A DNA stretch of 6,313 bases from Nitrospinae bacterium RIFCSPLOWO2_12_FULL_45_22 (GTDB taxonomy: Bacteria; 2-12-FULL-45-22). The stretch is taken from assembly GCA_001803565.1 (NCBI GenBank), contig MHDQ01000298.1, positions 1-6,313 on the forward strand, in the 5' to 3' direction. Of this stretch, positions 3,390 through 3,941 are shown piece by piece; the first letter of the stretch is position 1, and each line of letters starts with the position of its first letter. A program made the translations under genes and the position numbers. The notes under the pieces were generated by a model. The model worked only from the letters and a program-made list of their open reading frames with translations, was not told the origin of the DNA and searched no databases.

Positions 3390-3470
3390 CATTTGCCATG
3401 TCATATTGTGCTAAAATAATTTGGGTGTGGCTATTCTTTGTCATAACGCCTATATAATATAATTTGTAGC

Positions 3471-3488
3471 AGTCGAGCTTGCTCGACT
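3471..3488. repeat. perfect palindrome 1 of the structured element
   Basis: AGTCGAGC-TT-GCTCGACT is a perfect 8-bp stem with a 2-nt centre. Its core GAGCTTGCTC (3475-3484) is the exact reverse complement of the core of the next palindrome. A short GTAG/CTAC pair (3466-3469 with 3513-3516) encloses both. Confidence 0.75.
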
Positions 3489-3494
3489 TTATTT

Positions 3495-3510
3495 GCAGAG
3501 CAAGCTCTGC
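3495..3510. repeat. perfect palindrome 2 of the structured element
   Basis: GCAGAGC-AA-GCTCTGC is a perfect 7-bp stem with a 2-nt centre, starting 6 nt after palindrome 1. Its core GAGCAAGCTC (3498-3507) can pair with 3475-3484 of palindrome 1 over 10 bp. The block can therefore fold as two small hairpins or as one larger one. Confidence 0.75.
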
Positions 3511-3518
3511 CACTACCC

Positions 3519-3548
3519 TGCCTGTGCCGGAGTCACGGCAAGCAGGCA
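3519..3548. repeat. GC-rich stem-loop, third hairpin of the element
   Basis: TGCCTG (3519-3524) pairs with CAGGCA (3543-3548) and TGCCG (3525-3529) with CGGCA (3536-3540). A 2-nt bulge (AG) and a 6-nt loop complete an 11-bp stem. It is followed by TTGATAATGG rather than a T-run, so it is not a standard intrinsic terminator. It looks like a REP-type hairpin unit. Confidence 0.65.
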
Positions 3549-3610
3549 TTGATAATGGATTTCTGACCGAAAATAGCCATACCCAAGTTTGGTTATTGAT
3601 TTAACCTGGA

Positions 3611-3674: not shown

Positions 3675-3941
3675 ATGGAAGCTTTCCAGGCTGTGGAATT
3701 GGCGGTGCCTTTATGGCAACTAGCCGGGTTTGTAGCGTTAACTACCTTCTTTATGCTGTTCCATAAAACCAAGTTATGTTTGATTACCTCCTATTTATTT
3801 TCCTTTTACTGGGGCCTAATCTATAACGAAAGTACCATTTCTACCTTATTAGATGGTTCTTCTTTCACCCTGATGGTATATCTGGCATGCGGGTTGGCCT
3901 TCGTGTTCCTGGTTATTATAGCATGGATGACCACTGATTAA
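3675..3941 (+). CDS. small three-helix membrane protein of unknown function
   Basis: This 88-residue protein is almost entirely hydrophobic. Three membrane segments are apparent: about 12-29, 34-50 and 64-85. The basic turn HKTK (30-33) between the first two and the acidic loop around NESTISTLLDG (51-61) suggest, by the positive-inside rule, an outside N-terminus and an inside C-terminus. There is no signal peptide cleavage site, cofactor motif or CxxC pair; Cys35 and Cys72 are isolated. The gene is supported by a strong Shine-Dalgarno (GGGAGG 3663-3668, 6 nt before the ATG) and by a composition that only makes sense as a membrane protein. It lies just downstream of the structured element and converges on the dehydratase gene with 8 bp between stops. 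I do not recognise a named family and propose no function. Confidence 0.75.
   Translation: MEAFQAVELAVPLWQLAGFVALTTFFMLFHKTKLCLITSYLFSFYWGLIYNESTISTLLDGSSFTLMVYLACGLAFVFLVIIAWMTTD

Follow-up and report, generated by a model that had tools for sequence, protein, structure and literature searches.

A probable ISKra4-derived MITE enclosing a pair of GTAG-tagged REP palindromes in the genome of a Nitrospinae bacterium

The window, which here means the whole analysed stretch of 6,313 bp from contig MHDQ01000298.1 of Nitrospinae bacterium RIFCSPLOWO2_12_FULL_45_22, carries an unannotated palindromic element whose neighbouring genes encode a radical SAM/B12 protein, an acyl-CoA dehydrogenase, a MaoC-like protein and a CoA-transferase. 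Downstream of the element, at 3675-3941, lies a hydrophobic 88-aa frame that could be assigned to no known family. An earlier note, made from the sequence alone, had described the element as 172 bp (3418-3589) with 29-base arms matching at 23 positions and three internal hairpins, two of them perfect.

The structural part of this description was borne out. The arms at 3418-3446 and 3561-3589 pair at 23 of 29 positions and constitute the only inverted pair of 29-mers in the whole window that scores at least 20 at a distance of up to 250 bp, in comparison to a maximum of 21/29 in 12 dinucleotide shuffles of the entire window. Both hairpins 1 (AGTCGAGC-TT-GCTCGACT) and 2 (GCAGAGC-AA-GCTCTGC) are perfect and hairpin 3 (CCTGCCTGTGCC..GGCAAGCAGG) is imperfect. 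The minimum-energy fold fuses the two perfect hairpins into a single long stem closed by GTAG/CTAC. The predicted RNA fold of 3418-3589 has an energy of -74.3 kcal/mol versus -42.5 +/- 4.0 for shuffled sequences (z -8.05; 0 of 200 shuffles equal).

The host genome (3.67 Mb in 321 contigs, 85% complete) was searched with positions 3400-3600 as the query and gave 77 blast matches. With up to 2 mismatches allowed, GGTGTGGCTATTNTNNGTCA, the sequence of the element's end, was present at 63 sites, compared to 1 for the reversed-pattern control; numerous genomic copies with conserved arms, proposed in the earlier note as the mark of a mobile repeat, were thus found. At one mismatch the same end sequence was absent from 97 of 97 other genomes.

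Approximately 65 ends (up to 3 mismatches) and 20 two-ended copies of 106 to 344 bp were examined in the host genome. Target duplication was assayed by comparing the left and right flanks, with the partners permuted 2000 times. The 9-bp flanks of the 20 two-ended copies were identical at 134 of 180 positions versus 89.9 +/- 6.3 after permutation (z 7.0; 0/2000). The z value was 4.7 for 8 bp and 2.5 for 10 bp, and no signal was obtained for 7 or 11 bp. The duplication was complete (9/9) in six copies and comprised 7-9 of 9 positions in 12 of the 20. The many copies with terminal inverted repeats (TIRs) and no transposase gene are therefore accompanied by a target site duplication of fixed length (9 bp), as in miniature inverted-repeat transposable elements (MITEs); this duplication is lost at the window copy, which has no clean repeat (only 4/9). 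When the flanks of 19 two-ended copies were joined, 12 insertions interrupted no frame longer than 84 codons and 7 crossed frames of 277-533 codons.

Reading outward from either end, the target consensus is AAATNATTT. Since this consensus is itself palindromic, the arms reach 5 bases past each end of the element, and the outermost 5 bases of each 29-base arm are target DNA. The coordinates given in the earlier note consequently did not stand: the element proper runs from GGG at 3423 to CCC at 3584, giving a length of 162 bp. The features of the window copy are as follows.

3414-3422, no strand: left target sequence AAATAATTT, which fits the consensus in the target comparison
3423-3446, plus strand: left TIR GGGTGTGGCTATTCTTTGTCATAA, a left end common to about 30 copies
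3447-3465, plus strand: left subterminal AT-rich segment, common to type-I copies
3466-3488, plus strand: REP A, a GTAG tag and the perfect palindrome AGTCGAGCTTGCTCGACT, with 45 genomic sites; terminator-like
3495-3516, minus strand: REP B, GTAGTGGCAGAGCTTGCTCTGC, inverted, forming with REP A a pair bounded by GTAG..CTAC
3517-3549, plus strand: third hairpin CCTGCCTGTGCCGGAGTCACGGCAAGCAGGCAT, from another dispersed repeat, directly after CTAC
3550-3560, minus strand: right subterminal segment
3561-3584, minus strand: right TIR, GGGTATGGCTATTTTCGGTCAGAA on the minus strand, matching the ISKra4-side end in L051
3585-3593, no strand: right flank AAGTTTGGT, 4/9 against the left target, no clean copy

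The ends were next traced to a transposase family. At one contig end of the host genome (C10:8846, locus L051) a perfect TIR is present, and the stop codon of a transposase frame lies 4 bases inside it. This frame of 247 aa runs off the contig end and represents the C-terminal part of the protein; it matched NF033572, the NCBIfam model of the ISKra4 transposase, with E 8.8e-60 and 203 bits, the cut-off being 205 and the protein truncated. In the host genome, at 85% completeness and 321 contigs, a full ISKra4 copy was not found, the contig-end fragment being the only one. An exact TIR-pattern scan of a contig collection of 84,980 species, each represented by a single genome, returned 8 loci, 6 of which represent a stretch conserved in Vibrionales and Shewanella; L091 had no partner end, and the single TIR match in viral contigs had no partner end either. 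The only insertion sequence (IS) among the 8 loci, L094 of the Chloroflexi MAG Centralia_MAG_208, is a complete element of 1,575 bp, whose ends GGGTGCGGCTATTTTGAGACA and GGGTGTGGCTATTTTGAGTCA are near-identical to those of the MITE. It encodes an intact ISKra4 transposase of 487 aa that exceeds the curated cut-off and shares 34% identity with the C10 fragment, and it is flanked on both sides by the 9-bp duplication AAACCAATT. A protein scan of the same collection with the partial C10 transposase gave no relative.

The host genome and the Chloroflexi MAG, which are distant from each other, therefore agree in transposase family, ends, duplication length and target type. The MITE has ends in common with an IS of the ISKra4 family, and the DDE transposase with matching ends that the earlier note had proposed to look for was found, both in the host genome and in L094. 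Judged by these sequence matches, an ISKra4-family transposase probably mobilises the MITE. The 344-bp copy L052 had been regarded by eye as an ISKra4 deletion derivative retaining the transposase N-terminus; it was left out as evidence of parentage because neither BLASTP nor HMM search supported this. A tyrosine recombinase was also considered as the mobiliser and dropped, its fragment being present in one copy only. In that copy (L048, 1564-1761, G000:C127) the left MITE/IS end is followed by a 52-aa tyrosine recombinase fragment (NCBIfam XerA, E 0.0023).

The copies hardly vary in the 24 bases at the left and the 23 bases at the right, and each has one of several palindrome pairs as its interior. 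The type I interior contains TCGAGC/CAGAGC, with a variant having a longer second hairpin, and the type II interior contains GTAACTC..GAGTTAC with junctions of its own. Copy L036 carries GGCCGAT..CCCCCCTAC, and L032 and L044 carry GGAGACC/GGAAGGC. Type II palindromes are dispersed over 25 sites in the host genome; those of the GGAGACC type were found there only inside MITE copies, and a dispersed REP family is therefore not demonstrated for every cargo. Because the type I and type II junctions differ, at least two cargo acquisitions are needed, and there were probably more than two.

The third hairpin of the window copy, with CTAC to its left and the right subterminal segment to its right, belongs to a repeat, CCTGCCTGTGCC..GGCA, with 23 genomic occurrences by exact pattern, some of them overlapping. 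A related hairpin is found at the same place in L002, L003, L005 and L008, where the right end is lost; we infer that this site is a recombination point, which would fit the loss. In another copy (L011, 1504-1783, G000:C40) an insertion of ~140 bp with a CGTC-tagged palindrome, CGTCATTCCGGGCTTGACCCGG.., interrupts the second REP hairpin and forms a third level of nesting.

The inner 52 bases of the window element consist of two inverted GTAG-tagged palindromes. REP A was found at 45 sites in the host genome (control 0), of which ~15, about one third, are inside MITE copies and the remainder outside, and an intact REP pair free of the MITE is present at C165. The inner module is thus composed of short, dispersed, GTAG-tagged palindromes in inverted pairs, as are GTAG REPs and BIMEs. 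G039, a genome from a different family, holds this REP pair 19 times (79-93% identity), often arranged as BIME-type tandem arrays (L066-L080); MITE ends are absent from G039. That the palindrome family is common to such distant lineages suggests horizontal spread or convergence.

Four REP-associated tyrosine transposases (RAYTs) in the host genome scored above the NF047646 cut-off, so the TnpA_REP-type transposase envisaged in the earlier note is present as well, and three of the four are flanked by GTAG/GTAA-tagged palindromes. A RAYT with exactly the TCGAGC/CAGAGC REPs at its sides was not found. The closest candidate, at C141, has GTAGTGGCAGGTCTCCTGACCTGCCACTA to one side and ..CCCAGCACTACC to the other (tagged palindrome GTAGTGGCAGGTC..); it has the GTAGTGGCAG tag and the stem start in common with the MITE REPs, and its palindrome differs. 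The GTAACTC and CAACCC..GGGTTG palindromes flanking the C37 RAYT are also the cargo of type-II MITE copies. Two RAYT genes from unrelated genomes, L101 (G000:C282) and L097 (G039:C109), are flanked by inverted repeats starting with GGGTCAGG/GGGTCAGA and not by REPs; they resemble the TIR-flanked RAYTs described previously (PMC3733652).

All these data are very probably explained by a non-autonomous MITE of 162 bp, with ISKra4 ends, that encloses a dispersed REP pair. The choice offered in the earlier note between a MITE and a REP/BIME-like repeat is resolved as both, a DDE-type MITE around a GTAG-tagged REP pair. The inner REP dimer with its GTAG tags and the RAYTs in the genome could also be read as a pure REP/BIME (REPIN) moved entire by a RAYT, in which the outer arms would belong to the REP structure. 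This is very improbable, since the outer arms generate target duplications of 9 bp and correspond to the ends of an ISKra4 element, whereas transposition of the IS200/IS605 type yields no larger target duplication (PMC2817692). Moreover, REP pairs exist without the arms and arms exist with unrelated interiors. Just as improbable is the alternative put forward in the earlier note, a large multibranched RNA, here considered as a structured cis-regulator or sRNA. The predicted fold is indeed very stable (z -8) and a terminator-like hairpin with a T-rich tail is present at 3471-3488, but dozens of copies lie at unrelated loci with target duplications. RNAalifold with 15 copies gave a covariation term of 0.14, about zero, and the compensatory changes in the arms anticipated for a conserved RNA amounted to one both-sided change among these copies. 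The Rfam search gave nothing above chance level, and the interiors are replaced wholesale between copies, so that the inner hairpins differ by replacement and not by alignable covariation. The RNA proposal was accordingly left unsupported.

A secondary role, compatible with the ISKra4-MITE explanation, would be co-option of the MITE, with the REP hairpins as a predicted terminator or attenuator for the membrane-protein gene at 3675-3941. The element lies 90 bp upstream of this gene, a promoter-like TTGACA-18-CATATT is located immediately to its left and the terminator-like hairpin is inside it. Promoter and terminator scans were, however, near the shuffled expectation (3 versus 1.2 and 1 versus 0.6), and none of the related genomes searched carries the element; such a role is improbable.

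For the MITE with its REP cargo the following history may be proposed. The ISKra4 transposase, a DDE enzyme of Mutator-like type, would cut at GGG..CCC and insert the element at AAATNATTT-like sites, and insertion would generate the observed 9-bp duplication at the observed 24-bp TIR ends, which are common to the ISKra4 IS. Outside the MITE the REP family was probably dispersed by a RAYT. Type-I copies, judging from their common junctions, appear to have been amplified with the REP cargo already in place. The pattern of different palindrome pairs between the same ends means that a REP pair entered the shell, or was exchanged in it, on more than one occasion. A later insertion behind CTAC may have given the window copy its third, likewise dispersed, palindrome, and the right copy of the target may have decayed or been replaced. 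It is also conceivable, though rather doubtful, that palindrome pairs in the MITE are put in or swapped again and again by a RAYT/REP system cutting at the GTAG/CTAC tags and that the DDE transposase then spreads the cargo.

The ISKra4 family, p-MULT 4 of Guerillot et al. 2014 (PMC3942029), shares with the MITE the IS-type TIRs, the 9-bp duplication and the transposase family. Some of its members insert upstream of sigma-A promoters (PMC3942029); unlike these, the MITE shows no outward promoter preference, and a preference for insertion upstream of sigma-70-type promoters was not seen at the 65 ends. MITEs derived from DDE IS elements, such as MITEAba12 (PMC6382973), are likewise short non-autonomous copies with IS-type TIRs, but the interior of the window MITE is a REP pair and not an IS remnant. 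Likeness to GTAG REPs, BIMEs and REPINs (PMC2817692, PMC3733652, PMC3116915) extends to the GTAG tag, the short palindrome, the 2-base loop and the inverted pairs, and likeness to REP/RAYT systems to the tandem arrays, here in G039, and to RAYT genes beside tagged palindromes in the host genome; the difference is that the REP pair of the window element lies between DDE-type terminal repeats and has been spread together with them. The 'MITEtron', a MITE within a group I intron (PMC4853749), similarly joins two unrelated mobile elements and is widespread in one genome, but the window element combines a MITE with a REP pair instead of an intron. Each component is already of a known kind; what is modestly new is the repeated loading of REP pairs into a MITE shell. 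A literature search of limited coverage, which leaves novelty unproven, returned no paper on ISKra4-derived MITEs or on DDE MITEs that contain REP pairs.

Within 162 bases and with no gene, the element thus combines small mobile DNA of two unrelated kinds. An unannotated palindromic repeat of a poorly sampled bacterial lineage is now tied to a definite transposase family, and REP pairs are shown to travel inside a DDE-type MITE. If a RAYT does swap palindrome pairs within this fixed shell, the MITE would be a vehicle for new REP families and the exchange a route for their origin and spread.
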